From: Astrocystis sublimbata
Taxonomy: Eukaryota > Ascomycota > Sordariomycetes > Xylariales > Xylariaceae
DNA: 23,166 bases
Reading direction: 5' to 3'
NCBI GenBank assembly: GCA_022453515.1
Contig: JAJNNY010000147.1
Span: 1-23,166 of the forward strand
Under the pieces are notes generated by a model, which was not told the DNA's origin, ran no database searches, and worked only from the letters and a program-made list of their open reading frames with translations. The position numbers and the translations under genes were made by a program. Shown one piece after another: positions 1 through 22,318 of this stretch (position 1 is its first letter; the number at the start of each line of letters is the position of its first letter).

Positions 1-2086
1 CATCTTATTTCGGAATACTTTGAACTTCTTGAGCTTTCATCATGTTGGTATTGCTTTGCCACTCTGTAAATCCCGCTGGTACTGATTAGCATCCCAGGTG
101 CGATTCACAAACGCGATTTTCTGAAGCAGGTATCTCCACCGAGGGTCCTTTAAATGGGAGATTACTCACAATATCAACAGTACGACTCGTTCTGGGAGGG
201 ATCGCGAGACGTCCCTGTCATGTGGCTAGGCCTCTTGTTCAGCACCCTCTCAATAGCAGTGACGTTCCGAGAGTATGACGTGGACCAGTTTCGATCTGGT
301 CAACAGCTCGATTATGTCTCGCTTGGTGCTATTTATCGTGAGAAGACTGTACAGTGTTTGGTACTCGGACAGTACACGAGATGTGGCCCGCTCGTCCTCG
401 AGACCATGATTCACCATTTTGCTGCCGAATATATGCGTCGACGCGACGTCAACAACGAAGCATGGATTATCCTCAGCACTACAGTGCAATTAGCAAGTAA
501 GTGATCAGTTCGGGTATTTCAACATCATGATTACTAGGAGCTTGAAACCGGGGCTCTCTATCTAAGAATCACACGGGTAACTAACCAATGTTCCACATCT
601 ACAGTGCGCATGGTTATCATAGAGATCCTGACCACTTCAAGTCCATCTCACCATATGGTATGATTTCACCATCATGATGCGTATCCCGGTGCTAACGGAA
701 GCAGATGGCGAGCTACGACGCAGAGTATGGGCAATGCTCTATCATTTAGGGTCCGTATAAACTATTGTCCCTCCCATGCCAAGATCCATAGAGAACCTCG
801 AAGTCTCGTAATCGTTTTACTAACATTACTGTAGTCAGCTGTGATGCGTACATTGCGTTGTCCGCAAAGGACATTCCAAACCGTGGTGCTAACGGATGAC
901 AGACATCGCGACATCAGGACAGCTTGGAGTGCCGCGCCTGATCAACGACGCATTTGTTGACACAGCCGAACCCCGGAATCTCTTCGATAGTGACTTCGAT
1001 CCCAGCTCACCCGAGTTGCCACCTTCGCGTCCAGACACTGACCCAACTCCGATATTAGTCGTCTTGGCCAAACTACGGATCGGCCGCATGTACACAGCTG
1101 TCGCTGATATCGTAACGAAAACGCAGCCGCCTACATATGCTCAAGTCTTGCAGGTTGACCGACAGATCGAGGACATGTTCTTGAAGATCCCGGAATACTG
1201 TAGAATTCAGGAACAGTCCGAATCTGTTACAGTTCCGCCGCAGATACTGCTGCAGCGCATTTTCATTCAGATGAACCATTACAAATGCCAAGTTATCCTT
1301 CATTGGCAATATCTGAGATCGGCCAACGAGGATGACCGATATTCGTACTCAACCAAGACCACTGTTGCTGCCGCACTCAAGATCTTGAAACTAAACCAAA
1401 TTGTCTACGAGGGACTCAAAACCGGCGGGCGCCTTTACTCAGTCAGATGGCGAGTCACCTGCTTTTTCAGCCACGACTACCTCCTCGCTGTGAGCATATT
1501 ATGCTTCTACCTGCAGCAAAATGGTGACAGGGTCAGCAGCTCGGAGCTCAATGAGATCAAGCAAACTTTGCGTCAAACGAAAGAGATATGGGGCCCCAGG
1601 ACGCCCATGTCGACTGAAGTTAAGCGTGCTGCTGCTGCCCTTGAATCAGTCCTACCAGGTGTCCTAGGGCGCGACCCCGATGAAAGCTCGAGTGACAGCC
1701 AAGGAGTAGTAACGCCTGATGAGAGCTCAGAGCTAGGCGCATTTCACATTGACCAGGGTGTGTATGTCCATTTCTAACTAGCTTGTGGCTAAACACTAAC
1801 AATTCGACTACTTACAGATCCTTTTGTAGGCTCCATTTCGCCATTCTTTGACCCTATGTTCGAGGGAGCCCCCATGTTTCCCTCGCACATCAATGATATG
1901 GGGGCTTTCATTGACTCAGTATTGACCGGCTCGGCTGATCCATATATCGAAGTAAGTTCCGATCCAGAAAACCCAACATTGAACTATGCTAATGACGATC
2001 AAAGGCCCCGAACTTCGGTACCTTCTGTTGACCACTTCGGCCGTCCCATCAGAAAACTCAACGAAACCCATCTCTTATCTCGGTAA
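1..2086 (+). CDS. Zn2Cys6 fungal transcription factor, 5'-truncated left copy
   Basis: Partial copy of the gene complete at 14307-17144. It starts inside the protein at the window edge (HLISEYFELLEL), so the zinc cluster is missing. Likely introns are 48-89, 130-180, 497-604, 658-704 and 1758-1817; the exon structure between 750 and 915 is unclear. Fungal_trans middle-homology features are visible: VPVMWLGLLFSTL, GELRRRVWAMLYHL, then LGVPRLIND and RNLFDSDFD after base 920. The exon at 605-657 has GG at 612-613 where the right copy has GGG; this breaks the frame inside the conserved MRMGYHRDP motif. The 3' end is uncertain: the frame stops at 2086, but a GTAAGT donor near 1952 or a GTAAGC donor at 2083 could move the stop to about 2031 or 2214. 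Confidence 0.8.
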
Positions 2087-2795
2087 GCACACATGACCAT
2101 TGATGTTAATCCCATGGACAAATGATCATAAGACTAACTGGTCATACACAACTTCAAACTCACAGAATTCAAGTCCCAGTTGCCACTTTACGCATGTATA
2201 TCAGACCAACATGAATGTTAGAGGTGCGTGTACGATTGATGGAAATAGTCAGAACAATCCTCAACTCCTATGAATGAAGACAGTTTGAGCAGGAGGGATT
2301 ATATCTCTGTAGGGCTAGCGAACCTACAATCTCTCAGATGTATTTACTATGTACGAGACAAATGTACTAGATCTAGGAAATCGCTACCACAAAGAGTGTA
2401 ATCAATAGTCCCGTCCAACTGACCACAACGCGCCGAGCAATGCTGCAGGACTCTCTCACTGTCGGGGATCGCAAATCCCAGGCGAGATCTGGATCGGTAG
2501 GGCTCGCCTCCTTGCCTTCTGCGAACACCGTCATGCCCAGCCGACTAGCTTTGGGATATTGGAGGCACCCGAGGCCCTTGCCTTGTGCTACTACGTAATA
2601 GGTAATAAATAGGTAGAGTAACACGATTGTATGTACCTGTGCGTCAAACGGCCACGGACCCACCGTTGCAACTGCTGTACTAGGTAGGTAATATTAGACT
2701 TGTATTGTACATACAATGAAGAATGCCTCCTACCAAACCCATTCGAGTTGCCCCTCATCCAATCCTGTCCCATTGCGAATTGCTACAAGTACAAA
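2087..2795. other. Intergenic region between transcription factor and ADC-like gene
   Basis: No convincing gene. It contains the possible last transcription-factor exon (2166-2214) and several TAGGTA-type short motifs (for example near 2603-2620 and 2682-2692), which recur in other spacers of this window. A one-base indel against the right arm lies near 2508 (GCCTCC here, GCCTTCC in the mirror). An open frame runs into the next gene from 2700, but a start there would add 32 residues that do not look like the conserved N-terminus. Confidence 0.5.
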
Positions 2796-3714
2796 ATGGA
2801 CGAAATTGAACCAGTGCCTGCGCCGTGGCAGTTAAAGGGCACCGTGTACATCGTGAGCTTCCTCTCCAAGGCTGGACAGCTGCCCGACCATGCGTACTCG
2901 CCGCTCGAAAGAGATTCCCCGTATGCATCGCCGGCGGGGTCTGGGGAGCACCGGGGCGGCATAGGCCAATTTCAAGTGATCCGCACAGAGAGCCCGGTCG
3001 GCGCTTACGACGAGCTCATCGTCTGTCCTGGCTCCTTCAACTACGAGACGGAGGAAGACGGGCGGCGGAAGACGAAGAAGAACGCGCGCATCAGCCGCAT
3101 CTACGTCTCGCAGAAGTATACTTGCTGGAACGGGCGCAAGAGTCCGTCACCACTTCCCCAGATGACTAGCTCCTTGGTTTGGGACGCTAACCGAGGCCTC
3201 GCTTGCGCCTTTGACAGATTGGAATATCCCCAAACACCTAGCGCGCTTCGAGTGGGACGAGCTCGACGGCGGCGCCAAGGGCGTCCGGGTCTACCCACAC
3301 GACACGACGGGAGACCCATCTGAATCGCGAGCAAACAACGTGCCGCTATTCCAGGCCAGGTTCACGCCCATGCGCTGGACACCGAGTTTCCCCTTGTCCC
3401 TCTCGTGGCTGCGGTATGTGGGCATTGACGCATCGCTCGTACAGCCTCCATTGCCGGCGGGCGAGGGGTCCCAAGGCGAGCTCCCGGGCACGGATCGCTG
3501 GTGCAGGATCATGCCGGCGCAGTCTACGAAGCTCGCCAGCCTGGCCTGGGCGGATCTATCGCAGAAGAACGAGCAGGGCGAGCTGACGAGCAGCGTGGCG
3601 GACGAGAACTTCTGGCCGGGACTGGGGCGATGGCAACTTGCCCTCCAGATGGAGGATGCAGTCATTGACTTTGCGGAGGGCGCTTATTGGGATGCGCCCA
3701 AGACTAAGCTTTGA
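2796..3714 (+). CDS. Acetoacetate decarboxylase-like protein, left copy
   Basis: Two exons, 2796-3141 and 3218-3714, joined by a 76-base intron with an unusual GTCCGT donor and a CAG acceptor; splicing creates GRKNWNIPKHLARFEW. The product is about 280 residues with no signal peptide or membrane segment. Motifs such as SPVGAYDEL, CPGSF, ARISRIYVS and NWNIPKHLARF resemble the acetoacetate decarboxylase fold. From memory, the clostridial enzyme has a PKK motif whose first lysine forms the Schiff base; here the aligned motif is PKH, so the first lysine is kept and the neighbouring one is His. Activity is therefore uncertain, and fungal relatives are usually called hypothetical. This copy lacks three bases at about 2984, losing one Tyr (VIRTESP against VIRYTESP on the right). 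The start is chosen at MDEIEPVPAPW because conserved-looking sequence begins there. Confidence 0.7.
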
Positions 3715-4205
3715 TTTCACATTACGAGTATAGCCCACGCATCCACGATGGTTTGGCCTGCTGCATATCGTGTAAGTCCAGTGGTTAGGTACCAGCTCAG
3801 AACCTCATAGCCAGACAGTAGTTGCGATTTGTAACTTTCACTGATGGCATGGGCGGCATTCCTTGATCTCGGACGAACAAGTATCTTAGATACGTATACA
3901 GGTCATGTAAAGTATCGGATCAAACAGAGGGCGAGCATGCATGCATGCACGGTCAGAACCTTAGTCTGGTGCCTGGTCGAATAGACATGGATGGATAGAT
4001 CTAAAGTGATGAAGGTGCTGATGGTGCAGGCATGCGCGGTGTAAAGATTAGATAGCGTGCAAGCTCTGTGACTGACGGCAGTGAGATGTACCTGGTTAAT
4101 TTTCATACCACGGGACAGGGCCACCGAGGCTTACGGGATTGATTGATTCAGGCCCCAGGTACCGTACCTTCAGCACATGCATGTATGTAATCGCCACGTG
4201 ACCCC

Positions 4206-4211
4206 ACGCGT
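4206..4211. promoter_or_regulatory. Possible MCB box (ACGCGT) upstream of condensin gene
   Basis: The hexamer ACGCGT is the MluI cell-cycle box bound by MBF in yeasts, where it drives G1/S genes. It lies about 340 bases before the condensin start codon, and 6 bases after a CACGTG palindrome at 4195-4200. A single hexamer can occur by chance; the link to a chromosome-segregation gene is the only support. Confidence 0.35.
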
Positions 4212-4224
4212 CTCAGAGAGCAGT

Positions 4225-4289
4225 AAGGTACCTAGGTACTTAGGCACCCCCCACCTCTTCTAGCATGTGTCAGTACCTAAGGTACCTAC
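4225..4289. repeat. Short GGTACC-rich inverted repeat
   Basis: AGGTACCTAGGTACTTAGG on the left faces AGTACCTAAGGTACCT on the right, roughly 15 of 16 bases complementary with one extra T and a spacer of about 30 bases. Each half is itself a near-palindrome. Similar TAGGTA/GGTACC motifs occur in other spacers of the window (near 2603, 2685, 3788 and 4158), suggesting a low-complexity intergenic motif family rather than a gene-specific site. Confidence 0.55.
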
Positions 4290-4548
4290 AGAGTACGCTG
4301 TATGCTGGCGAGGTTGGAGGGGCTTGTGGTGTGGTGACTGCCCCTCCATCAGTGATTGGTTGCCTTGGTTGCCCGAGCTGCGCCCAACAGGACTAGCGCG
4401 GCTTCTGGTGTTTACTTGCGACTTTGACTTCCAACTGTCGGCCCATCCCGTCACATCATCCCGTCGCATGCGCCCAGCGCGAACATCTCCGACCTGCAGC
4501 GAATACTCACGAAACAAGATCCAAAGTCGAGTCGCCTCCTATCTTACG

Positions 4549-7409
4549 ATGCCTCGTGTTGCTCAGAAGCCTCGCGCGAGCATTGGGGCGAGAACCGTTT
4601 CTGGTTCATCCAACTCCCCGTTCAAATCACCCCTCAAGTAGGTTTGCCGTGTCTTTCCTATGGTGTGCTGTGGATGCTTGCATTTATTTGTTTATATGCG
4701 CTGGCCTCATCTTGGCGGTCGAGCACCTCCTATTTCCCCATCAGACCGCATTGCTGGCAGAACCAAGCTCACCGCTGCCGTTGCTTAGGATCCCTCTCAA
4801 CGACGACGCGCGGGAGAAGAAGGGCCGACTTCACTCTCGCAAAGCCCTCCACGATAAACAGATCAGCGAGTTACAACAGGCAGCAGCTACGCCCGCGAAG
4901 AAGGCCGGATTCAGACTGGTGGACCTCGATAATGCCTCTGCCCGCTCGAGCCCGCGGACCCCGCGGCGAGCCCGGGGTGCAGATGCGGACGACGATGATG
5001 ACGACGACGACGAGAACGACGACGATGGCGATCTTATGGTGGTCGGCAGCGGCGTGACGCCTATGAAGCGCGTGCCCATCTTGGCCAACTTCGAGGAGTG
5101 GATGAAGATGGCCACCGACAACAAGATTAACGCCGCCAACTCGTGGAACTTTGCCCTGATTGATTATTTCCATGATATGTCCTTGCTCAAGGACGGAGAC
5201 GGCGTCAACTTCCAGCGCGCCAGCTGCACCCTCGATGGTTGCGTCAAGATCTACACGAGCCGAGTCGATAGTGTGGCCACCGAGACAGGCAAGCTCCTGA
5301 GCGGTTTGGCCGACAGCAATTCGAAGAAGAAAGCCAGGGACGAGGAGGGCGAGGGCGAAGAGAGCGAGGAGGAGGTAGACGAGGACGGTAACGTTGTTAG
5401 GAAGAAGACCAAGAAGCGCGTACGTTCGACTCTATCGCGCGTTCACGCATCATGGCCATGCTGACAACAAGCTAGCAACGATCATCAGAGGCCACACTAG
5501 CCCCGTCATTTGCGTCTCTACAGCTCAAGAAACTCGATATGGAATTTGCAGTAGATCCCCTGTTCAAGAAGGCCTCTGCCGATTTCGACGAGGGCGGCGC
5601 TAAAGGTCTCCTGCTGAATCATCTTATGATCGACGGCCAGGGACGCATAGTCTTCGACAGCAGTGACGACACCAATGATAAGTCAGCAGATGGCATCAAG
5701 CCTCGGCGAAGAGAGGACATCACAGCGGATGAGGAGGCAGAATTGGAGGACGAAGAAGACGACGATGATACGATCACAGATCAGCCAAAAGCAGAAGATG
5801 AAGAAGATGTAGAGATTGATATCAGCGCTCTCGGTGCTAAATTCTTCCCAGATCTGGCTTTGTTGGACGAGCAAGACATATGTCCCTCTTTGAAGACCTT
5901 TGATCTCGGTAATCCTTCGGGCTCACTAGACATCCCGTTCCTGCGCGCCCCAGAAGGCGATGGAGAGGATGAGGACGAAGACGCTCTCGACGCAGCTGGT
6001 AACAAATCTGGGATGTTTATTGACGACGAAAACCCGATGGGCTTCGATGATATGACAGCTATGGGTGGATTCGATATTGCCGAGGTCGCGTTCGGGGAGG
6101 GTGGTGAGGCCTGGGCACGAGAGGCTGCCTTAGAGCCCCAAATGCGCCCATACAACATGGGCCTTGACGATGAGATGGCAGGGGCTGAAGGCATGGAGGG
6201 CATGGGCGACGAGAATGCCGACTACGTCGTTTCTATGAATCACATGAAGAATAGCAACAACACACACGAAGACATTCTTGGTTACTTCGACCAAGCGCTT
6301 CAGAAGAACTGGGCTGGGCCAGAGCATTGGCGAATACGGAAGATCAAAGATGCTAATAAGCCAGAAACCACTCGGCAACGGAAGGAAAAAGAGCCATTCG
6401 AGATTAACTTCGCCGCGCCACTGATGCCAAACTCGCCGACACCATCTATACACAAGCAACCAGCAACTCGGCGATATCGCTACCCAAGAAAGACTGGAAG
6501 TCCAAGACTCGCAATCTGCTACCCGACGATAAGCACTTCAACTCAAAGCAGCTTCTCAGCCTTTTCCTCAAGCCCCAAAGCTCGGATGAGCAGCAAGCGG
6601 AACCGCTTTAGTAGGGTCGGAAATGCCGGCTATGGCGGGTCTTCAGAGAACGTGCACCCAGCCGATATGGACGAAGCCTTCTGGGCCAAGAATGAGCCTC
6701 TCAAAAGCCGTGAGGATGATACCGTCCTGCCTCAGGGCGACTACGACGCCGACTTCTTCGACGATGCGATGCCATTCGCTGGCGGTATGATGGATGACGA
6801 CAATGACGAATTTGCTGATGCCAGAGACCACTTCTCACCGAGCGCGGAGGCGCTGCCTACAGAAGCTCTCGGCACCACAACAATGTTCGATAATGGCATG
6901 ACAATGGGCGGTTCGGTACTCAGCTAGTCACATCTACGCGCCGGCTGCGGCCAGAGTATGTCCAGTACGCCCGTGTCGCCAAGAAGGTCGATGTCCGCCG
7001 CCTCAAAGAGAATCTCTGGAAAGGCCTGGGTTACCTGAACCCAATGAGGTGCGTTGTAGCCCAGCTCTTGCTAATAATCAGCACCTTTCTGTATCCGTAT
7101 ATAATAACGTAGCTAACATCGCGTGACCAGGACGGCAAACCGATCGAGATTACCAACGCCTCCTTCAGACGCCGAGGCAGTGCAAACGCCAAAAGACGAG
7201 GAGACACCACTCAAATTCACCGACGTCATGAATGACCTGAAGTCTGTCTATCCCAAAAACGTCATGGACGACATCTCTACGAGCTTCTGTTTCATCTGTT
7301 TGTTGCACTTGGCCAACGAGAAAGGCCTCGTGATCGAGAAAACGCAGAGCTTCTCGAACTCGAGATTCGAAAGGATTGGAATGCTGAGATAGTAGAAGGG
7401 GAAGTTTGA
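4549..7409 (+). CDS. BRN1: Condensin complex subunit 2 (kleisin, CAP-H/Brn1 family), left copy
   Basis: Kleisin subunit that bridges the Smc2-Smc4 heads in condensin and recruits the HEAT-repeat subunits. Exons are 4549-4637, 4789-5419, 5524-7048 and 7131-7409; the last intron has an AGCTAACAT branch site. After allowing for the missing bases the model is 842 codons, in the family's usual range. The N-terminal domain (FEEWMKMATDNKINAANSWN, later FQRASCTLDGCVKIYTSRVD) is the Smc2-binding part; an Asp/Glu-rich linker follows; the C-terminus (FTDVMNDLKSVYP, FCFICLLHLANEKGLVI) is the winged-helix Smc4-binding part. This copy is broken as written. A lost T at 6421 and an extra C at 6573-6576 put about 51 residues out of frame. 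A lost T at 6912 leads to a stop at 6927. A lost C in the last exon removes the natural end ELLELEIRKDW. The right copy reads correctly at several of these sites. Confidence 0.93.
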
Positions 7410-7612
7410 GTCGTTGAAAAAAAACAAGCTTCCTCTTGGGATTATGAATTATGCCGTTGTTCTTTCAAATCGTGTCGTAGGTGCCGTGTCGCAACAGATC
7501 CACCGATTGCCAGGTTTACGATTTGCAGTAGTTATGGATTACGCTTTGTTATGATAGCCGCAAGAAGCGAGCGAATAGAAGATATAGTCTTTTGCCAACA
7601 ACATACCATTAC

Positions 7613-8106
7613 TTATGATGAAAACGCAGCGTATATGCCATTATCCACACCACGGAGCATCTCTCTATCTTCGCGACTACGTGATGCCATGAGAGGATCC
7701 GTGAGAAGGTCAGGAGGAGCGTTTCCAGGTCCCATTGTTTTCTCCATAACCCAGTAGGGGCTGGGAAAATGCTCATACCACTCACCATTCATCTTAAATA
7801 CCTCCCTTGGGGCCGCTAATTGTCACATAACACGCTGTCCCTCGCAACGCGCCATCCTGGTGAAACCACTGATAACAATACAAACATGGAGATCTTAATC
7901 GAGATTTTCTAATTTCGATGTGCTCGGACCCGACCGGGGTCACTATGCCAGGACGCAGACTTCGTCATTCTTACGAGCTCCTTGCGTAATGGGTCCATCA
8001 GGGCTAGAGCGCGCCGATCACAACGCTTTGTTGTTCTAGCAGATATTCTAGATGTCTGCGCTTTCTTAGTTCCGAATGGGAAAAGTGTGGTGTTTTTTAG
8101 TATCTG
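7613..8106 (-). CDS. Unrecognised gene next to fold point, 3' part, left copy
   Basis: Convergent with the condensin gene and ending about 200 bases from it. The last exon is open from 7816 to the stop at 7613 and includes FKMNGEWYEHFPSPYWV, GNAPPDLLTDPLMASRS and REMLRGVDNGIYAAF. It is preceded by a TTAG acceptor. A second open stretch nearer the fold (mirror of 8276-8488) includes RALALMDPLRKELVRMTKSA. The two could be exons of one gene with an intron of roughly 100 bases, but the joint is not resolved and I do not recognise the family. The amino acids look natural, without low complexity. The 5' end is not seen and may lie beyond the palindrome centre. This left version reads more naturally than the right one (FPSPYWVMEKTMGPGN against FSRPLLGMEENNGTGN). 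Confidence 0.45.
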
Positions 8107-8171
8107 TCAACTTTCTTCTATTTATTGCTTTACGTTTATGTTGTAGCTCAGTAGTGCGGTACTTGCACTCC

Positions 8172-8210
8172 ATATACATACATATATTATGGATACATGT
8201 ATGTATATAT
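8172..8210. repeat. AT-rich fold point of the palindrome
   Basis: The 39 bases between the perfect inner arms are almost all A and T and are themselves imperfectly self-complementary: an ATACATACAT run on the left faces an ATGTATGTAT run on the right, offset by one TA unit. The truly unpaired core is about ten bases around TTATGGATAC. Short AT-rich inverted repeats like this can prime fold-back synthesis in vivo, and hairpins of this kind also arise during library preparation. Confidence 0.8.
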
Positions 8211-8275
8211 GGAGTGCAAGTACCGCACTACTGAGCTACAACATAAACGTAAAGCAATAAATAGAAGAAAGTTGA

Positions 8276-8772
8276 CAGATACTAAAAAACACCACACTTT
8301 TCCCATTCGGAACTAAGAAAGCGCAGACATCTAGAATATCTGCTAGAACAACAAAGCGTTGTGATCGGCGCGCTCTAGCCCTGATGGACCCATTACGCAT
8401 GGAGCTCGTAAGAATGACGAAGTCTGCGTCCTGGCATAGTGACCCCGGTCGGGTCCGAGCAACATCGAAATTAGAAAATCTCGATTAAGAATCTCCATGT
8501 TTGTATTGTTATCAGTGGTTTCACCAGGATGGCGTTGCGAGGGACAGCCGTGTTAGTGTGACAATTAGGCGGCCCCAAGGGAGGTATTTAAGATGAATGG
8601 TGAGTGGTATGAGCATTTCTCCAGACCCCTACTGGGTATGGAGGAAAACAATGGGACTGGAAACGCTCCTCCTGACCTTCTCACGGATCCTCTCATGGCA
8701 TCACGTAGTCGCGAAGATAGAGAGATGCTCCGTGGTGTGGATAATGGCATATACGCTGCGTTTCATTCATAA
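8276..8772 (+). CDS. Unrecognised gene next to fold point, 3' part, right copy
   Basis: Mirror of the left copy. Open frame 8276-8488 (70 codons) is followed by a probable intron, then a last exon from about 8569 to the TAA at 8770-8772. The 59-codon frame from the Met at 8593 stays open in both arms, although paired one-base indels change residues 10-23; this supports coding function in the true sequence. At 8400 this arm gives Met where the left gives Lys (PLRKELV), the one clear substitution I found. The two copies diverge from the fold point and would share one 5' region if the palindrome were real. Confidence 0.45.
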
Positions 8773-8975
8773 GTAATGGTATGTTGTTGGCAAAAGGACT
8801 ATATCTTCTATTCGCTCGCTTCTTGCGGCTATCATAACAAAGCGTAATCCATAACTACTGCAAATCTGTAAACCTTGGCAATCGGTGGATCTGTTGCGAC
8901 ACGGCACCTACGACACGATTTGAAAGAACAACGGCATAATTCATAATCCCAAGAGGAAGCTTGTTTTTCAACGAC

Positions 8976-11840
8976 TCAAACTTCCCCTTCTACTATCTCA
9001 GCATTCCAATCCTTTCGAATCTCGAGTTCGAGAAGCTCTGGCGTTTTCTCGATCACGAGGGCCTTTCTCGTTGGCCAGTGCAACAAACAGATGAAACAGA
9101 AGCTCGTAGAGATGTCGTCCATGACGGTTTTTTGGGATAGACAGACTTCAGGTCATTCATGACGTCGGTGAATTTGAGTGGTGTCTCCTCGTCTTTTGGC
9201 GTTTGCACTGCCTCGCGTCCTGAAGGAGGCGTTGGTAATCTCGATCGGTTGCCGTCCTGGTCACGCGATGTTAGCTACGTTATTATATACGGATACAGAA
9301 AGGTGCTGATTATTAGCAAGAGCTGGGCTACAACGCCACCTCATTGGGTTCAGGGTAACCCAGGCCTTTCCAGAGATTCTCTTTGAGGCGGCGGACATCG
9401 ACCTTCTTGGCGACACGGGCGTACTGGACATACTCTGGCCGCAGCCGGCGCGTAGATGTGACTAGCTGAGTACCGAAACCGCCATTGTCATGCCATTATC
9501 GAACATTGTTGTGGTGCCGAGAGCTTCTGTAGGCAGCGCCTCCGCGCTCGGTGAGAAGTGGTCTCTGGCATCAGCAAATTCGTCATTGTCGTCATCCATC
9601 ATACCGCCAGCGAATGGCATCGCATCGTCGAAGAAGTCGGCGTCGTAGTCGCCCTGAGGCAGGACGGTATCATCCTCACGGCTTTTGAGAGGCTCATTCT
9701 TGGCCCAGAAGGCTTCGTCCATATCGGCTGGGTGCACGTTCTCTGAAGACCCGCCATAGCCGGCATTTCCGACCCTACTAAAGCGGTTCCGCTTGCTGCT
9801 CATCCGAGCTTTGGGCTTGAGGAAAAGGCTGAGAAGCTGCTTTGAGTTGAAGTGCTTATCGTCGGGTAGCAGATTGCGAGTCTTGGACTTCCAGTCTTTC
9901 TTGGGTAGCGATATCGCCGAGTTGCTGGTTGCTTGTGTATAGATGGTGTCGGCGAGTTTGGCATCAAGTGGCGCGGCGAAGTTAATCTCGAATGGCTCTT
10001 TTTCCTTCCGTTGCCGAGTGGTTTCTGGCTTATTAGCATCTTTGATCTTCCGTATTCGCCAATGCTCTGGCCCAGCCCAGTTCTTCTGAAGCGCTTGGTC
10101 GAAGTAACCAAGAATGTCTTCGTGTGTGTTGTTGCTATTCTTCATGTGATTCATAGAAACGACGTAGTCGGCATTCTCGTCGCCCATGCCCTCCATGCCT
10201 TCAGCCCCTGCCATCTCATCGTCAAGGCCCATGTTGTATGGGCGCATTTGGGGCTCTAAGGCAGCCTCTCGTGCCCAGGCCTCACCACCCTCCCCGAACG
10301 CGACCTCGGCAATATCGAATCCACCCATAGCTGTCATATCATCGAAGCCCATCGGGTTTTCGTCGTCAATAAACATCCCAGATTTGTTACCAGCTGCGTC
10401 GAGAGCGTCTTCGTCCTCATCCTCTCCATCGCCTTCTGGGGCGCGCAGGAACGGGATGTCTAGTGAGCCCGAAGGATTACCGAGATCAAAGGTCTTCAAA
10501 GAGGGACATATGTCTTGCTCGTCCAACAAAGCCAGATCTGGGAAGAATTTAGCACCGAGAGCGCTGATATCAATCTCTACATCTTCTTCATCTTCTGCTT
10601 TTGGCTGATCTGTGATCGTATCATCGTCGTCTTCTTCGTCCTCCAATTCTGCCTCCTCATCCGCTGTGATGTCCTCTCTTCGCCGAGGCTTGATGCCATC
10701 TGCTGACTTATCATTGGTGTCGTCACTGCTGTCGAAGACTATGCGTCCCTGGCCGTCGATCATAAGATGATTCAGCAGGAGACCTTTAGCGCCGCCCTCG
10801 TCGAAATCGGCAGAGGCCTTCTTGAACAGGGGATCTACTGCAAATTCCATATCGAGTTTCTTGAGCTGTAGAGACGCAAATGACGGGGCTAGTGTGGCCT
10901 CTGATGATCGTTGCTAGCTTGTTGTCAGCATGGCCATGATGCGTGAACGCGCGATAGAGTCGAACGTACGCGCTTCTTGGTCTTCTTCCTAACAACGTTA
11001 CCGTCCTCGTCTACCTCCTCCTCGCTCTCTTCGCCCTCGCCCTCCTCGTCCCTGGCTTTCTTCTTCGAATTGCTGTCGGCCAAACCGCTCAGGAGCTTGC
11101 CTGTCTCGGTGGCCACACTATCGACTCGGCTCGTGTAGATCTTGACGCAACCATCGAGGGTGCAGCTGGCGCGCTGGAAGTTGACGCCGTCTCCGTCCTT
11201 GAGCAAGGACATATCATGGAAATAATCAATCAGGGCAAAGTTCCACGAGTTGGCGGCGTTAATCTTGTTGTCGGTGGCCATCTTCATCCACTCCTCGAAG
11301 TTGGCCAAGATGGGCACGCGCTTCATAGGCGTCACGCCGCTGCCGACCACCATAAGATCGCCATCGTCGTCGTTCTCGTCGTCGTCGTCATCATCGTCGT
11401 CCGCATCTGCACCCCGGGCTCGCCGCGGGGTCCGCGGGCTCGAGCGGGCAGAGGCATTATCGAGGTCCACCAGTCTGAATCCGGCCTTCTTCGCGGGCGT
11501 AGCTGCTGCCTGTTGTAACTCGCTGATCTGTTTATCGTGGAGGGCTTTGCGAGAGTGAAGTCGGCCCTTCTTCTCCCGCGCGTCGTCGTTGAGAGGGATC
11601 CTAAGCAACGGCAGCGGTGAGCTTGGTTCTGCCAGCAATGCGGTCTGATGGGGAAATAGGAGGTGCTCGACCGCCAAGATGAGGCCAGCGCATATAAACA
11701 AATAAATGCAAGCATCCACAGCACACCATAGGAAAGACACGGCAAACCTACTTGAGGGGTGATTTGAACGGGGAGTTGGATGAACCAGAAACGGTTCTCG
11801 CCCCAATGCTCGCGCGAGGCTTCTGAGCAACACGAGGCAT
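8976..11840 (-). CDS. BRN1: Condensin complex subunit 2 (kleisin, CAP-H/Brn1 family), right copy
   Basis: Mirror copy; exons 11752-11840, 10970-11600, about 9340-10865 and 8976-9256. It keeps the natural sequence where the left copy is scrambled: DWKSKTRNLLPDDKHFNSKQ is in frame at about 9840-9910, and the last exon ends ELLELEIRKDWNAEIVEGEV before TGA at 8976-8978. Its own faults are a lost G at 9482-9483, which leads to a false stop at 9462 before the conserved QLVTSTRRLRPEYVQYARVA segment, an extra C near 9354 in the GLGYLNP codons, and indels at about 9150, 9220 and 9247. Neither copy is intact as written, but together they define one full gene. N-terminal features, acidic linker and exon boundaries are as in the left copy, with no coding differences seen in exons 1 and 2. 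Confidence 0.93.
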
Positions 11841-12674
11841 CGTAAGATAGGAGGCGACTCGACTTTGGATCTTGTTTCGTGAGTATTCGCTGCAGGTCGG
11901 AGATGTTCGCGCTGGGCGCATGCGACGGGATGATGTGACGGGATGGGCCGACAGTTGGAAGTCAAAGTCGCAAGTAAACACCAGAAGCCGCGCTAGTCCT
12001 GTTGGGCGCAGCTCGGGCAACCAAGGCAACCAATCACTGATGGAGGGGCAGTCACCACACCACAAGCCCCTCCAACCTCGCCAGCATACAGCGTACTCTG
12101 TAGGTACCTTAGGTACTGACACATGCTAGAAGAGGTGGGGGGTGCCTAAGTACCTAGGTACCTTACTGCTCTCTGAGACGCGTGGGGTCACGTGGCGATT
12201 ACATACATGCATGTGCTGAAGGTACGGTACCTGGGGCCTGAATCAATCAATCCCGTAAGCCTCGGTGGCCCTGTCCCGTGGTATGAAAATTAACCAGGTA
12301 CATCTCACTGCCGTCAGTCACAGAGCTTGCACGCTATCTAATCTTTACACCGCGCATGCCTGCACCATCAGCACCTTCATCACTTTAGATCTATCCATCC
12401 ATGTCTATTCGACCAGGCACCAGACTAAGGTTCTGACCGTGCATGCATGCATGCTCGCCCTCTGTTTGATCCGATACTTTACATGACCTGTATACGTATC
12501 TAAGATACTTGTTCGTCCGAGATCAAGGAATGCCGCCCATGCCATCAGTGAAAGTTACAAATCGCAACTACTGTCTGGCTATGAGGTTCTGAGCTGGTAC
12601 CTAACCACTGGACTTACACGATATGCAGCAGGCCAAACCATCGTGGATGCGTGGGCTATACTCGTAATGTGAAA
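11841..12674. other. Mirror of the condensin upstream region
   Basis: Reverse complement of 3715-4548, with the same boxes: ACGCGT at 12178-12183, CACGTG at 12189-12194, the GGTACC-rich inverted repeat at 12100-12164 and the GCATGC run near 12440-12453. No gene recognised. Confidence 0.6.
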
Positions 12675-13596
12675 TCAAAGCTTAGTCTTGGGCGCATCCC
12701 AATAAGCGCCCTCCGCAAAGTCAATGACTGCATCCTCCATCTGGAGGGCAAGTTGCCATCGCCCCAGTCCCGGCCAGAAGTTCTCGTCCGCCACGCTGCT
12801 CGTCAGCTCGCCCTGCTCGTTCTTCTGCGATAGATCCGCCCAGGCCAGGCTGGCGAGCTTCGTAGACTGCGCCGGCATGATCCTGCACCAGCGATCCGTG
12901 CCCGGGAGCTCGCCTTGGGACCCCTCGCCCGCCGGCAATGGAGGCTGTACGAGCGATGCGTCAATGCCCACATACCGCAGCCACGAGAGGGACAAGGGGA
13001 AACTCGGTGTCCAGCGCATGGGCGTGAACCTGGCCTGGAATAGCGGCACGTTGTTTGCTCGCGATTCAGATGGGTCTCCCGTCGTGTCGTGTGGGTAGAC
13101 CCGGACGCCCTTGGCGCCGCCGTCGAGCTCGTCCCACTCGAAGCGCGCTAGGTGTTTGGGGATATTCCAATCTGTCAAAGGCGCAAGCGAGGCCTCGGTT
13201 AGCGTCCCAAACCAAGGAGCTAGTCATCTGGGGAAGTGGTGACGGACTCTTGCGCCCGTTCCAGCAAGTATACTTCTGCGAGACGTAGATGCGGCTGATG
13301 CGCGCGTTCTTCTTCGTCTTCCGCCGCCCGTCTTCCTCCGTCTCGTAGTTGAAGGAGCCAGGACAGACGATGAGCTCGTCGTAAGCGCCGACCGGGCTCT
13401 CTGTGTAGCGGATCACTTGAAATTGGCCTATGCCGCCCCGGTGCTCCCCAGACCCCGCCGGCGATGCATACGGGGAATCTCTTTCGAGCGGCGAGTACGC
13501 ATGGTCGGGCAGCTGTCCAGCCTTGGAGAGGAAGCTCACGATGTACACGGTGCCCTTTAACTGCCACGGCGCAGGCACTGGTTCAATTTCGTCCAT
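12675..13596 (-). CDS. Acetoacetate decarboxylase-like protein, right copy
   Basis: Exons 13248-13596 and 12675-13171, with the same GTCCGT-type intron donor as the left copy. It encodes 281 residues and keeps the Tyr missing on the left (VIRYTESPVGAYDEL). The PKH motif that aligns with the decarboxylase lysine motif is at about residues 121-123. This is probably the correct version of the gene. Downstream is the condensin gene on the same strand; no operon-like coupling is implied in a fungus. Confidence 0.72.
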
Positions 13597-14306
13597 TTTG
13601 TACTTGTAGCAATTCGCAATGGGACAGGATTGGATGAGGGGCAACTCGAATGGGTTTGGTAGGAGGCATTCTTCATTGTATGTACAATACAAGTCTAATA
13701 TTACCTACCTAGTACAGCAGTTGCAACGGTGGGTCCGTGGCCGTTTGACGCACAGGTACATACAATCGTGTTACTCTACCTATTTATTACCTATTACGTA
13801 GTAGCACAAGGCAAGGGCCTCGGGTGCCTCCAATATCCCAAAGCTAGTCGGCTGGGCATGACGGTGTTCGCAGAAGGCAAGGAAGGCGAGCCCTACCGAT
13901 CCAGATCTCGCCTGGGATTTGCGATCCCCGACAGTGAGAGAGTCCTGCAGCATTGCTCGGCGCGTTGTGGTCAGTTGGACGGGACTATTGATTACACTCT
14001 TTGTGGTAGCGATTTCCTAGATCTAGTACATTTGTCTCGTACATAGTAAATACATCTGAGAGATTGTAGGTTCGCTAGCCCTACAGAGATATAATCCCTC
14101 CTGCTCAAACTGTCTTCATTCATAGGAGTTGAGGATTGTTCTGACTATTTCCATCAATCGTACACGCACCTCTAACATTCATGTTGGTCTGATATACATG
14201 CGTAAAGTGGCAACTGGGACTTGAATTCTGTGAGTTTGAAGTTGTGTATGACCAGTTAGTCTTATGATCATTTGTCCATGGGATTAACATCAATGGTCAT
14301 GTGTGC
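13597..14306. other. Mirror of spacer between ADC-like gene and transcription factor
   Basis: Reverse complement of 2087-2795. It contains the possible last exon of the transcription factor (about 14179-14227) and TAGGTA-type motifs. An open frame at 13729-14046 is longer than its left counterpart only because of a one-base difference near 13882, so it is not taken as a gene. Confidence 0.5.
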
Positions 14307-17144
14307 TTACCGAGATAAGAGATGGGTTTCGTTGAGTTTTCTGATGGGACGGCCGAAGTGGTCAACAGAAGGTACCGAAGTTCGGGGCCTTTGATCGTCA
14401 TTAGCATAGTTCAATGTTGGGTTTTCTGGATCGGAACTTACTTCGATATATGGATCAGCCGAGCCGGTCAATACTGAGTCAATGAAAGCCCCCATATCAT
14501 TGATGTGCGAGGGAAACATGGGGGCTCCCTCGAACATAGGGTCAAAGAATGGCGAAATGGAGCCTACAAAAGGATCTGTAAGTAGTCGAATTGTTAGTGT
14601 TTAGCCACAAGCTAGTTAGAAATGGACATACACACCCTGGTCAATGTGAAATGCGCCTAGCTCTGAGCTCTCATCAGGCGTTACTACTCCTTGGCTGTCA
14701 CTCGAGCTTTCATCGGGGTCGCGCCCTAGGACACCTGGTAGGACTGATTCAAGGGCAGCAGCAGCACGCTTAACTTCAGTCGACATGGGCGTCCTGGGGC
14801 CCCATATCTCTTTCGTTTGACGCAAAGTTTGCTTGATCTCATTGAGCTCCGAGCTGCTGACCCTGTCACCATTTTGCTGCAGGTAGAAGCATAATATGCT
14901 CACAGCGAGGAGGTAGTCGTGGCTGAAAAAGCAGGTGACTCGCCATCTGACTGAGTAAAGGCGCCCGCCGGTTTTGAGTCCCTCGTAGACAATTTGGTTT
15001 AGTTTCAAGATCTTGAGTGCGGCAGCAACAGTGGTCTTGGTTGAGTACGAATATCGGTCATCCTCGTTGGCCGATCTCAGATATTGCCAATGAAGGATAA
15101 CTTGGCATTTGTAATGGTTCATCTGAATGAAAATGCGCTGCAGCAGTATCTGCGGCGGAACTGTAACAGATTCGGACTGTTCCTGAATTCTACAGTATTC
15201 CGGGATCTTCAAGAACATGTCCTCGATCTGTCGGTCAACCTGCAAGACTTGAGCATATGTAGGCGGCTGCGTTTTCGTTACGATATCAGCGACAGCTGTG
15301 TACATGCGGCCGATCCGTAGTTTGGCCAAGACGACTAATATCGGAGTTGGGTCAGTGTCTGGACGCGAAGGTGGCAACTCGGGTGAGCTGGGATCGAAGT
15401 CACTATCGAAGAGATTCCGGGGTTCGGCTGTGTCAACAAATGCGTCGTTGATCAGGCGCGGCACTCCAAGCTGTCCTGATGTCGCGATGTCTGTCATCCG
15501 TTAGCACCACGGTTTGGAATGTCCTTTGCGGACAACGCAATGTACGCATCACAGCTGACTACAGTAATGTTAGTAAAACGATTACGAGACTTCGAGGTTC
15601 TCTATGGATCTTGGCATGGGAGGGACAATAGTTTATACGGACCCTAAATGATAGAGCATTGCCCATACTCTGCGTCGTAGCTCGCCATCTGCTTCCGTTA
15701 GCACCGGGATACGCATCATGATGGTGAAATCATACCATATGGTGAGATGGACTTGAAGTGGTCAGGATCTCTATGATAACCCATGCGCACTGTAGATGTG
15801 GAACATTGGTTAGTTACCCGTGTGATTCTTAGATAGAGAGCCCCGGTTTCAAGCTCCTAGTAATCATGATGTTGAAATACCCGAACTGATCACTTACTTG
15901 CTAATTGCACTGTAGTGCTGAGGATAATCCATGCTTCGTTGTTGACGTCGCGTCGACGCATATATTCGGCAGCAAAATGGTGAATCATGGTCTCGAGGAC
16001 GAGCGGGCCACATCTCGTGTACTGTCCGAGTACCAAACACTGTACAGTCTTCTCACGATAAATAGCACCAAGCGAGACATAATCGAGCTGTTGACCAGAT
16101 CGAAACTGGTCCACGTCATACTCTCGGAACGTCACTGCTATTGAGAGGGTGCTGAACAAGAGGCCTAGCCACATGACAGGGACGTCTCGCGATCCCTCCC
16201 AGAACGAGTCGTACTGTTGATATTGTGAGTAATCTCCCATTTAAAGGACCCTCGGTGGAGATACCTGCTTCAGAAAATCGCGTTTGTGAATCGCACCTGG
16301 GATGCTAATCAGTACCAGCGGGATTTACAGAGTGGCAAAGCAATACCAACATGATGAAAGCTCAAGAAGTTCAAAGTATTCCGAAATAAGATGGTCGGCA
16401 AAGTTCTTAGGAGGTACAGCTGCCAAGATCTCATCCTTGCTGCAAGGTCTGCAGCCGTAGAGAAGGGGGGAATCTCGAGGATTGACGGATGGAGGCTCAG
16501 CGACCGCTCGGTCTGGTCTGGGGTCATCCGAATCAAGGAAATCGTTTTTCAGCTCGGCAATCGCGTCTATGATCGATCTATAATGGGTTTGGTCCCGATA
16601 CTGTGTTTCGGTGCTGCTGGACTTTAAACTTCCAACATGCGAGGCATCGCGTCCCTGCTCGTTAGGCGAAGAAGCTATGGTCACAGGTGAGCCTCCTGCC
16701 CCTTCACTCTGGTTCATGTACGAAACCAGAAGGTTTTCGAGATGTCTCAACCGATCCTGAACCCCCGTAAGAGGGGTTGATGCAGTACCATCTTGCACAT
16801 AAGTACATGACGCTTCAAGACCCCGTTTCTGAATTGTGTTAGCATGATTAGATACACGGTTGGAAGCCATCGTGGAATTGCGAGATTGCTGTATAATTAA
16901 TTACCTTGCAAGTAAGACATGGGGTTTGCCGGTCGCATCTCAGTCTACCACGGCGGTTAGTGAATTCTGGCCGACTGCACGTCGCTTGTTACACACTGGG
17001 TATTGGCCATGCATACTTTCGACGCCGACACAAGTTGCAGCTGAGCTGCGGTTTGTCCCGGCGCCTGTTTGGAGGTGGACGAGGACGTCCTCCGGATTCA
17101 ACGGCTGCAGGGCCGTGGGCGCTATTATCGCCACTTGAGGACAT
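14307..17144 (-). CDS. Zn2Cys6 fungal transcription factor, complete copy
   Basis: Nuclear DNA-binding regulator of the Gal4 type. The first exon is 17017-17144, then 16905-16944, then exon 3 from 16828 to about 16347, followed by the exons mirrored from the left arm. Splicing the first two introns (17016-16945 with a GTATGC donor, 16904-16829) rebuilds a perfect zinc cluster: CNLCRRRKLRC, then CLTCKKRGLEASC, with Cys at residues 36, 39, 46, 52, 55 and 64. A proline/arginine-rich stretch precedes it. The middle domain has VPVMWLGLLFSTL, MRMGYHRDP (intact here because of GGG at 15780-15782) and GELRRRVWAMLYHL. The target is unknown. Intron structure near 15480-15640 and the 3' end (14307, 14362 or 14179) are uncertain. 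Exon 3 crosses the palindrome boundary at 16393 without disruption. Confidence 0.88.
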
Positions 17145-18431
17145 GGCAGCTAGCTAACTTGGCCAAGCACATCAAATGATGCAGTCTCGAAGCCGATTGC
17201 CTCTGTCATTGGATATAGTTGACAGACCATGAAAATGAGGGTCCAGATCGCATGAATATTCAACACGGCTTTACCACTAAGAGACAAATGGCAAGTAATA
17301 CGGATGTGGTGGGAATGTAGATATGATGATGCAGGTGATAGTCCGTTGTGGGACCAGCCGACCGTCCGAGCCAATCAAACTGCTTTACTGTCTTGGATAT
17401 CAACTGCAAAGGGGTAATCAACTGCTGCCTAGATACCTGTGAGAAGTCATACTACTGCAATGTATTTCTCTGTGAACTTGGTAAGAGGAACTTAGTGTTC
17501 AAGGGTGATGTAACAAACTTGGTTACTTAACACTAGCAGATTCTCATGACCAAGTGAAAAAAGGCTTAACTTTCATAAATGCTACGAATGGCTTTACTAG
17601 AGCATACAGACTTCTCAAATGATGTAAAGCAGCGATATATAAATGCTAACCTTTTCTATATAACTAGTTAAGGGCATGCTTTCCTTTTTATATCGGTTTA
17701 TATTTGCTTTACCTTCCTAAAAAAGTGGTTATTGTGACCAATGGTACTTTATAGAGGTCTTTATACATAAGAATAAAAGCAAAGGTGTGGTTTGATCCTT
17801 ATCAAGACGTCTGGCGCGAGACGCTTGCCCTTTCCTTGCACACAGTTAGTTATATGTACACATCAGGATCAATAATATATACACAGTTGAAATTGAAGCA
17901 AGGTATATGTAGCTAAAACTATGAACAATAAAAGAAATAGAAGTAAGAATAAATTCACAAACATGAGTACAAGCGGGCTAAGCCTTGTTGTTTAAAAGCT
18001 ACGTACTTAAGTACCTTTCACTCATAGCGTTAATGGAATAACGGCGGGATCGTAGGAGCACTACCGCCATTGTCCCTTCAGTCCACTAACTCAACATTAA
18101 CTGGCAGAAACGCGTTCTCTGAAGAAATTGACGCGTACATTCACGCGACTCACGCCACGTGCTTCCAACAGTAGTAGCAGTCACAGGTAGGCCATCGCCT
18201 GGCAGTTCCAATGTCCTTACTTAGCAGTAACTGGCCGACCCTCCAGTGAATCAACGCCTGCACCAAACTTGCAACATCTTGTTTTGTTGTTTTTTCCCAC
18301 CTTCTGCAACCCGCCCATGAAGGGTAGCTACAGTATCATCAGATTCTTGACTCATCGGTCCCTCATCGTCGCTCATTGTGTGCAAACCCCATATCATCAC
18401 ACTCCTAACAAAAGCAAGAACAACACCAACA
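17145..18431. other. Intergenic region, AT-rich block at about 17530-18010
   Basis: Spacer between two divergently transcribed genes (transcription factor on -, MYND protein on +), so it should hold both promoters. No coding frame is convincing. From about 17530 to 18010 the sequence is clearly richer in A and T than its surroundings, with many TATA-like runs and no long open frame; it may be a worn repeat. A Kozak-like CAACAATGGC context ends the spacer at the MYND start. Confidence 0.55.
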
Positions 18432-20524
18432 ATGGCAGCTCCAGCAGCGGCCGCTCCAGGAGCCGTTGATTCAGTTGAAAAGCTGTTCGGGCTATGCTCA
18501 ATCCAGAAAGCATTCTCGAAGACGACACCGAGGTAAGCAGTTTCTGCCTATGATGCATATTCATAGCATGAAGTGCCTTAAAAGGCCACTCTGCTCCATG
18601 ATCATCTACAAGTTGCTGAATATTATGGCACCTTATGGCATTGGTTCACTCGAGTAGAAACGACTGACTTTGGTGTGCGACAGAGCGCCACTAACCGGAT
18701 CTACAATGCCCTACGAACCTTCTTGGCGGATCCCCCTTCAGAAGACCCGGACTACCCGTTCCTTCTACATTACATCTCGCTAGCCGCCGAGAAAAGAAAG
18801 ACGTCGATGGTCGGCTACTTCCGCCAGCAAAGTATGTCATAGACCTAGTCTGTAATCTTTTGTATCGCTTCATCATAACTGCTAGCTTTTATCGCCTTTA
18901 CACACATTCTTCTCTTTCCATTTCGAGAACAGCCAAGATGCCTAGCAAATCTAGTATTTGTTGAAGGGCCGTTGCTGACTTCACTATGTGTTGAATAGTG
19001 GCACACCTGGCAATGCAGAAGCCTATCGACCGCAAGGACAAGAGTGCTAAAACCCGACAGCTCAAATATTACAGATGGCTGGCTCTTGGGCTCAAAAACG
19101 AGTCCTGGCCCTTCCCAACAATGAAGCCAGGAGGAGCCGCGTCTACAGTACGAATCGCAGGATTGGCCAATCCAACAAGCTGTGCCTTTTGCCATAAGCC
19201 AGGCGCCAACTACAGATGCCCTACATGCAACATCCAGGACAATAAATACGTGGTGAACAAGACTGCATACTGCAACAAGAAGTGTCTTGAGGAGCATCAT
19301 GACACTCACAAACCAATTTGCGAGGGCCGTGTCATGGTCTACCGCACTGCTCAAATGCTTGGATTCATCTTCATGGCAATGCAGGATGCCACGTATGTCT
19401 ACCCTATCGGAAAGTCCTTCCTGAAGAATGGTATTATTTACCTCATCGACGGTGACTGGGACCGCGCTGGCATGACGGGACGATCTGTATTCTTCCCCTT
19501 TCCCAAGCATCAGGTCGACTCAGCGGAGACTCATCGCGCCTGTGAGTATATATCCAGCCTTGTTGTTGTATTGCCTTATTTTGCTTGCCTTTCTCGGAGT
19601 ACTGGTTGCTGAATCTAGTAACACATCGAAGTGCTGTACTGGGGTCAGTGTAAGGAACTGAACCTCTCGTTATATCCTCTGATCAGATATATGTTCAAGC
19701 GTAAGTGGCTATTCTGTCCAAGTTGGTGTTAGGGTTTGCTGATTCTAAAAACGATAATTATAGAAATCTGCGGAAACGTCGAGCTGATATTCATCTCACC
19801 CAAGAATGTGTTGCGTCCCATTTGCCAACTCACCAAGGGAAGAGCCTTCAACCTTTGTCTTCACAGACACATATGCTTAGGACTCACTCTGGCATCGGGC
19901 GAAAAGTACATCATCGATCTCACCGGAGCCTCATTTGGCTGGCACGAGGTTCTGACTCCTTGGGAGACATGGATGGATTTGCGAGCCGGTAGATGGGAAT
20001 CGGATCCCTTCAGACCCGCAACCGGTGATCTCAAGGAGTATATTTCGAACAATACTCTGGATTCGTTCCAACAAGAGGTCCGGATCATGTTACTGAAGAC
20101 TCTGGTTCACGAGCTGAACGGCTTGCTGCGCGCCAACAATTGTCAATCGTTCGACAAATTGGTCAAGCTTCCTGAACCCGAATGGAGACGAGCAGAGGGT
20201 GAGATTGTGCAGATGGTCCAGAACCAGATCTATCTACGTGTGACGTGTGAATATCACAAAACCGCGTATCGCCTCTATTTTACCCCTCCTCCCGAGTTCG
20301 CACTTCATATCGCAAAGAGAGATGCGGCTGCATACAAAAAAGGTAAGATCATCTTCTGCAGCGATTCATAACATGTTTCTGCTTTGTATTTAGGTGTCAA
20401 TTTACTCCCTCTCGCACCAGAACTCGCGGCAGTATTAACAGGTGCAATTGCTAACTTCCGGTGTGCTGTAGTCTGGATGAGTGGAAAGGAGTACGATCAA
20501 CTCAGAATGGCGGTGCAGACATGA
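18432..20524 (+). CDS. MYND-type zinc finger protein
   Basis: Six exons: 18432-18532, 18686-18831, 18999-19541, 19632-19700, 19764-20342, 20472-20524; total 1491 bases, 496 residues, in frame throughout. The start is a Met in good context (AACAATGGC) followed by an Ala-rich N-terminus. Residues 144-190 form a MYND finger: CAFC, CPTC, CNKKC and HKPIC supply seven Cys and one His. MYND fingers bind proline-rich partner peptides; the rest of the protein (LIFISPKNVLRPICQL, GWHEVLTPWETWMDL) is conserved-looking but not recognised by me, and no SET motif was seen. It is probably a fungal hypothetical protein, intracellular. The acceptor before exon 4 (CGAAG at 19631) is weaker than the others but is the one that keeps the frame. 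It lies in unique sequence, so no second copy is seen. Confidence 0.82.
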
Positions 20525-22318
20525 GAGCGATTGTGAGTAGTTCTTGAATGCTTTCTTCTAGCATCCCTGTCTAGTGACCTCCAGACTACATTAATTCCTT
20601 CTTAAGTCTGCTGAATACTAATGTTAGATCTCCTAGTGGGGGGAACGTTGTGAGAAATACCTCAAACAGCGAACGGCGGAAATCGTCATCAACATGTGAG
20701 CGATTGAACGTGTCAAAACCTGGAGGACAAGCTCCACACGGAAAAACATTCTCAACCAATCATGACAGGGAAGTGTAAGAGTCCTGAACGACCTCAGCAA
20801 AAAGGGAGGAAATTGGCGGATGATTCCGATGAGATGTCTGTTGCAACAGTTTTGCAGGTCCTACACGGTACAACACATTACCCAATATTAGCTCTCGACA
20901 TGCTATCTCGATATGCTACAAAAAATGGAGTAGGTCACAGTACTTTGACGAAGTCGTTGTTCCTAGGGAGGAAACAGACAAGACAACTAGGTAGTCGCGC
21001 ACATGGCAACAGCGCACAATTATGAGCCAATAGTTCCTGAAGCTGCAATAATTACTGGCTTTCTCCGGGCCAATTAAAATCCTTCAAGTTCAGATAACCG
21101 TTTAACGTCCCGAGATATGCATTTCCTGTCGCACGAATCCTTCTAGCCCTCTGCTGTGTTTGAGGGTGCTTCTAAGTGCAAGAACATACGCCGCATGGGG
21201 AATCTGACAGCGCCTGGGTTACATCCTCGAACGCCACGACGTCGCTACACACCGTTGAGCTGCGTACCGTGGGTAAGGCATAATTATCATCACATGGTAT
21301 GACATGGTACACCAGATTGCGTGGTATGGCATAGGGTAGTAATTGTACTGTTTTCAAAGTAGTTCTATCTGCCCGATTGATTAGCATCTATCAAGTCCGA
21401 CTATCTAAGAATGGGAATTAGGTCTACGGCAGTATAATGCCAAGAAAGCACCACGTTTTCTCCGGTGGTCCAATCAATGTTGAGAAAATCTCCGATCGTG
21501 GTACAGTACATGTCAGTTCCAGTCCCCAACTTCACGATCGAGATATCGTCTAGTCCTGACTCTTATGTACAGGACACGCAAAGCCACTCTTTTCTCCGCG
21601 GTTGTCCCCACCTATGCTCGATCCCTGTAATAACTAGCATTGCGAGCTCACTTTGACGGATGAAAACTGCCAATGGCAGCTTGCGCTACAGATGCCTGAG
21701 CCGCAAGAAGAAGTAAGGTGAGAAGTCGCGATGCGGATTCCGCCGAGCTCGTCAAGTCACAGCTGTCTCTTATCTCAAAGACCTCACCAATCTTTATTCT
21801 TTGGTACTGCCAGCATCATAGACGATTCATAAGTGGGCGGGACCGTGGCGAAGATGTGGATTCTCATAATGCAATGGTCATCTGATCTGACCACCACCGG
21901 CACACCGTTGGGGGATCTAAATATGGCAATGTAAAGTGACAGGCTTCGAAAATAGCAACAACAAGGCAAAACACGAAACGGTCAGCTTGTGCTATCATGA
22001 CGAAAACGAATTAGAGATTTGCAGAATGGTAGTTATTGAACATCTAGGTACACATGCAAGCCAGTCGTGAGCCGTGCTGTCGTGGTAGTGAGACCTGTCT
22101 GCATCGGGTAATTGCCTATCAAGCAGCGGCACAGCACTGATCCGTAGGATTCGTTGTATCAAGACCAGAGTGCTACCATGGGCTAACGTGAACCGCCGAT
22201 GAGTTCGCGGTATAAGATCTATGCGAGTTCTTTCGTATTGTAACATTTCGAATCATGATGCTCTGTCCCTAGTCCACTACTCGTGCCCTTTCTTGTGCCC
22301 CTGACCTGTATTTTCAGT
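20525..22318. other. Intergenic region with no recognised gene
   Basis: About 1.8 kb between the MYND gene and the P450 gene. Short open frames (the longest is 87 codons at 20762-21025) show no recognisable motif. No tRNA, terminal repeat or transposon fragment was recognised by eye. The last few hundred bases should contain the P450 promoter; a GGTATAAGA motif at about 22209-22217 could be a TATA element. Confidence 0.5.

Follow-up and report, generated by a model that had tools for sequence, protein, structure and literature searches.

The palindromic contig C54 of Astrocystis sublimbata is probably a fold-back artefact formed at a natural 36-bp palindrome

We analysed contig C54 of the fungus Astrocystis sublimbata, placed by taxonomy in the Xylariaceae, and found that it is most probably a fold-back artefact of the library or of the reads that was retained in the assembly as a redundant contig. 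From sequence comparison we put the probability of this reading at roughly 90%, a figure that covers an artefact of either kind, hairpin-seeded or arising at a random fragment end. On the same basis, the palindromic duplication that C54 carries is almost certainly not a feature of the genome. The window, that is, the whole stretch of DNA analysed, is the complete contig (23,166 bp); the assembly has 189 contigs and 42,594,959 bases. The fold position is not arbitrary but lies inside a natural palindrome of 36 bp.

The palindrome and its unfolded counterpart

Comparison of the window with itself by blastn gave one inverted match, positions 1-16393 onto 16393-1, with 99.41% identity over 16,429 columns. 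The original prediction of a near-perfect palindrome at 1..16393 with arms of about 8.2 kb thus had its coordinates right, and an inverted match of 8.2 kb far exceeds chance. The list of arm-to-arm difference events placed the axis at about 8190, and most of these events were one-base indels, bearing out the many that had been noted. The absence of a spacer was slightly off, since the local arms at the axis (8000-8185 and 8197-8382) are 11 nt apart. Base 1, which was to be checked as a contig end, is one, because the window spans all of C54.

The same locus is carried once, and unfolded, by a contig of 478,457 bp (C110). Window 8193-23166 aligned unbroken to C110:158669-173644 with 99.89% identity; within this alignment, the arm corresponds to C110:158669-166869, in one copy, and window 16400-23166 to C110:166876-173644. 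From position 1 to about the axis, the window aligned to C110 in the reverse direction, with 99.48% identity up to window 8218. C54 can accordingly be divided into a left arm (1..8185, minus strand), which is a reverse-complement copy of the right arm and equals C110:166869 down to about 158678; an imprecise junction of about 11 nt (8186..8196) inside a copy of the 36-bp palindrome; a right arm (8197..16393, plus strand) collinear with C110, whose alignment begins at window 8193 (C110:158669); and an unduplicated tail (16394..23166, plus strand), also collinear with C110 and ending at 173644. The left arm maps to C110:166869-158678 on the minus strand and the right arm starts from 158669 on the plus strand, so that the opposite-strand segment maps back within 200 bp, the distance that defines a fold-back in the available text of PMC12870357, where the definition was written for reads and not, as here, for a contig.

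We favour an artefact because all of C54 except about 11 nt at the axis, which is at most the sequence that it has of its own, aligns to C110:158669-173644. A further reason is that C110 passes the fold point into 8,650 bp (150001-158650) that occur once in the genome, so that an unfolded allele spans the fold point in the same genome. Both ends of C54 also lie in sequence that continues in C110, which extends beyond 173644, and the alignment to C110 showed no foreign sequence at either end. By these alignments, the entire contig is redundant with C110, the left arm and the remainder alike. The original prediction had singled out the left arm as the potential artefact; that arm would indeed be a spurious copy, but the redundancy takes in the whole contig.

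The differences between the two contigs suggest the same origin. Outside the junction (8160-8230, omitted from all counts), C54 differs from C110 by 40 events, 39 indels and one substitution; 32 of the 39 indels are adjacent to homopolymers, and 33 of the 40 events lie within 2 kb of the axis. On the right side (8193-23166) all 15 differences are indels, 11 of them within 2 kb of the axis, and the left arm has 25 differences (24 indels and the substitution), 22 of them within that distance. With a cut at 1.7 kb the figures are 11/15 on the right and 21/25 on the left, for which even spacing gives binomial probabilities of 4e-8 and 2e-11. Differences with C110 are not common to the two arms: only at C110:159446 do the two arms have differences within 2 bp of each other, and there the run lengths are unlike in the two. 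Errors that are indels, adjacent to homopolymers, near the axis and unshared by the arms argue for an artefact, and their crowding fits polishing by reads from the normal locus, which would leave the sequence clean far from the axis and poor where folded reads alone can be placed. Poor base calling in nanopore data also affects real inverted duplications, according to the available text of PMC7229812, so that errors near the fold do not by themselves prove an artefact. Taken together, the unfolded locus on C110, the scant sequence that C54 has of its own and the pattern of consensus errors support the chimera at a contig end that had originally been favoured.

Condensin and the gene order beside the fold

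The arms contain the condensin gene that had been reported, and several open reading frames (ORFs) without a name. The condensin subunit 2 gene (Cnd2/CAP-H) lies at 4772..7359 on the plus strand in the left arm, with its frame broken by indels and shifted from 6422 to 6573, and at 9012..11617 on the minus strand in the right arm, where the 3' part also has indels relative to C110. Its 462-amino-acid ORF scored 388 bits against Pfam Cnd2 in the left copy and 474 in the right, and the lower score is most simply due to the frame shift between 6422 and 6573. In the assembly as a whole, Cnd2 (PF05786) gave 12 matches, three of them pieces on C110 that span 159490-162093 and the others pieces on C54, five in its left and four in its right arm. 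The long pieces on C110 and C54 have one stop in each, which we most simply take for an intron. The highest-scoring piece is on C110 (597 bits, against 517 for the best on C54), and this is another reason to read C54 as the artefact. We concluded from these matches that the genome probably has one real Cnd2 locus.

That the genome has a fixed inverted duplication at another site, which would give extra condensin genes, appears highly improbable. Such a duplication would explain why C54 stands as a separate contig and why Cnd2 matches at three places, two on C54 and one on C110; against it, C54 is without flanks of its own, its Cnd2 copies hold indels near the axis, and substitutions from C110 are almost nil (1/40 events).

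The rest of the window yielded few annotations. The start of a cytochrome P450-like gene lies at 22283..23150 on the plus strand (PF00067 on 22283-22801) and is cut by the contig end. No Pfam family was found for the ORFs at 896-1777, 2700-3323, 3211-3714 and 22710-23150. ARAGORN gave no tRNA match, and Rfam gave no match for the window at gathering thresholds nor for 17600-18100 by E-value. A dispersed element of about 100 bp occupies window 17788-17889 and has at least 40 further matches in the genome, with 74-97% identity, 40 of 106 candidates having been scored.

On C110, an HMG-box gene at C110:155208-156425 (plus strand) lies on the side that is lost at the fold, and the condensin gene lies across the fold on the minus strand, so that the 3' ends of the two genes face each other. 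Among the matches listed (120 per protein, compared by eye), Cnd2 and HMG-box proteins occur on contigs of equal size in at least four relatives: P0004 and P0133 (both contigs 102,854), P0005 and P0129 (45,806), P0006 and P0153 (87,841), and P0023 and P0225 (16,020). Equal sizes imply, without proving, a shared contig, and most named genomes drop out of the comparison, as few occur in both lists. Outside the named genomes, six HMG-box matches had a longest contig above 15 kb, and four of these had a Cnd2 partner; those on contigs of 65,427 and 69,262 bp had none. A Xylaria curta assembly has the two genes on separate short contigs of 12,146 and 6,247 bp (P0001, P0154), which is uninformative. 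Because relatives pair Cnd2 and HMG-box on contigs of equal size, the gene order of C110 appears to be the normal one, and this, in turn, supports the reading of C54 as an artefact.

A 36-bp palindrome at the axis

The axis lies in C110:158656-158691, a perfect palindrome of 36 bp. This 36-mer occurs only once in the assembly, matching on both strands as any palindrome does, which rules out a repeat family. The palindrome occupies the gap between the condensin gene (minus strand) and the HMG-box gene (plus strand), possibly a fragile site. It is the only perfect palindrome of at least 20 bp in C110:150001-180000, and 200 kb sampled from the starts of 20 further contigs contained one, with a size of 20 bp. 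The chance that a random point lands in the palindrome is about 36 in 30,000, a post hoc figure. As single-stranded DNA, a 42-nt stretch is predicted to fold with 19 pairs and a 4-nt loop (-14.5 kcal/mol, z -6.0). The best models of the junction need 5 edits and place the turn about 4 to 7 bp away from the centre of the palindrome, eleven models being tied; a simple fold exactly at the centre was rejected, as it needs 13 edits. An axis inside a unique, hairpin-forming palindrome points to hairpin snap-back, in which the palindrome would have closed a broken fragment end and copying or reading would have gone round it.

We suggest the following course for the artefact. The seed of C54 would have been a single fold-back molecule or read, or a few of them, derived from the locus now on C110. 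A fragment would have broken at or beside the palindrome, and its strand would have folded on itself there to form a hairpin. Either library preparation would have filled in or sealed this hairpin, or sequencing would have gone round it without a split; in both cases one strand would be read first and its complement next. The assembler may then have retained the folded sequence instead of merging it with C110. Ordinary reads from the unfolded locus would have polished the outer parts of the arms, but they could not have spanned the fold, and errors would thus have persisted near the axis.

Missed adapters and joined strands are a common source of template-complement reads, which speaks for an artefact of another kind, in which the palindrome is irrelevant: a PacBio read left unsplit because its hairpin adapter was missed, or two nanopore strands that software had joined, turning at a random fragment end. 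Adapter sequence at the axis was looked for and rejected, the best matches to adapter cores having mismatches at 23/45, 13/28 and 9/23 positions. A trimmed or absent adapter would look the same, so that this result does not discriminate. A random end would, however, have had to hit the sole palindrome of its size, with the post hoc chance given above, and we consider an origin of this kind unlikely.

A rare but real rearrangement is a further alternative. A double-strand break near the palindrome, followed by fold-back priming and fill-in, would give an inverted duplication, either hairpin-capped or dicentric, in a minority of the nuclei of the culture, and a single molecule of this kind would have been sequenced. 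In its favour, the axis lies on a hairpin-forming palindrome, as in yeast fold-back inversions (available text of PMC7467729 and PMC10622511), so that the hairpin-forming inverted repeat expected at the junction of an in vivo fold-back inversion is present; the junction is also slightly off the palindrome centre and has extra bases, as a hairpin loop could leave. The low number of substitutions (1/40) does not speak against such an event, because a fresh one would carry none. In contrast, the stabilising rearrangement or telomere also expected of an in vivo fold-back inversion was not found in the window, which has no doubled TTAGGG or CCCTAA; the ends of C54 have no foreign sequence, although C54 may represent part of a longer molecule; and the allele assembled to 478 kb is the unfolded one. 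We consider such a rearrangement unlikely, and with it the idea that the palindrome between the convergent genes is a fragile site where living hyphae produce hairpin-capped inverted duplications by fold-back priming, C54 being one of them. If the fold were real in living cells, the 36-bp palindrome would be a fungal fragile site.

Several points count against the artefact that we prefer. With its axis at 8190 of 23,166, C54 has 8.2 kb on the left and 15 kb on the right, which is outside a 10% margin of the midpoint, albeit of a contig and not of a read, and the symmetry filter for artefact reads in the available text of PMC12870357 expects the fold within 10% of the read midpoint. In addition, hairpins seed fold-backs in living yeast (available text of PMC7467729 and PMC10622511). 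We found no genome report tied to Astrocystis sublimbata in the literature. Assemblies such as this one generally come from PacBio reads. The virtual absence of fold-backs from PacBio HiFi reads, described for only three PacBio samples in the available text of PMC12870357, would also count against an artefact if C54 came from such reads.

Other contigs and known systems

Among 20 other contigs, each surveyed over its first 10 kb, one folded back. This contig (C20, 55,728 bp) has positions 1-5268 mirrored by 5303-10570, with 100% identity outside the axis, and, unlike for C54, no unfolded copy of the fold region was found elsewhere in the genome. A multi-copy element that appears rich in inverted repeats lies within about 100 bp of the axis of C20, and some of its copies are near contig ends. 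Fold-back contig ends thus recur in the assembly, at 1/20 in a sample that is small and size-biased (19 of the 20 contigs 49-83 kb, one 837 kb). In the same sample, C18:1-10000 has a GC content of 36.5%, whereas the remaining 19 starts range from 48 to 53%.

Reading C54 as an artefact removes a false duplication of condensin Cnd2 and its neighbours from the assembly. It also suggests that the site at which a fold-back contig forms can be determined by a short natural palindrome; should the folds of other such contigs lie on palindromes too, a sequence-level filter for them would follow. A non-exhaustive literature search, in papers of which part of the text was available, PMC12870357 and PMC13141652 among them, found no statement linking artefact folds to natural palindromes.

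The available parts of published reports describe three systems with which C54 can be compared. Palindromic chimeras of whole-genome amplification (Pacasus, PMC6218980) are like it in that inverted repeats in long reads disturb assemblies, and unlike it in that there is no sign that the DNA of C54 was amplified; in an Arabidopsis PacBio control sample of that study, 4,714 of 940,162 reads had detectable palindromes. Yeast fold-back inversions, which originate in hairpins of single-stranded DNA (PMC7467729) and also form when a strand folds back at a break and is filled in (PMC10622511), share with C54 the hairpin-forming sequence at the junction, whereas C54 is without a stabilising secondary rearrangement or telomere and its normal allele is present. 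Fold-back artefacts of long reads make up about 0.55-0.6% of nanopore genomic reads, and the sequence that separates their two segments is enriched in simple repeats (PMC12870357), and inverted-repeat chimeras occur at 0.18-7.33% in ligation libraries (PMC13141652). Like C54, such artefacts return on the opposite strand to the same place, with little or nothing between, and have an unfolded allele that covers the site; C54 differs from them in being an assembled contig, asymmetric about its axis and folded on a natural palindrome.
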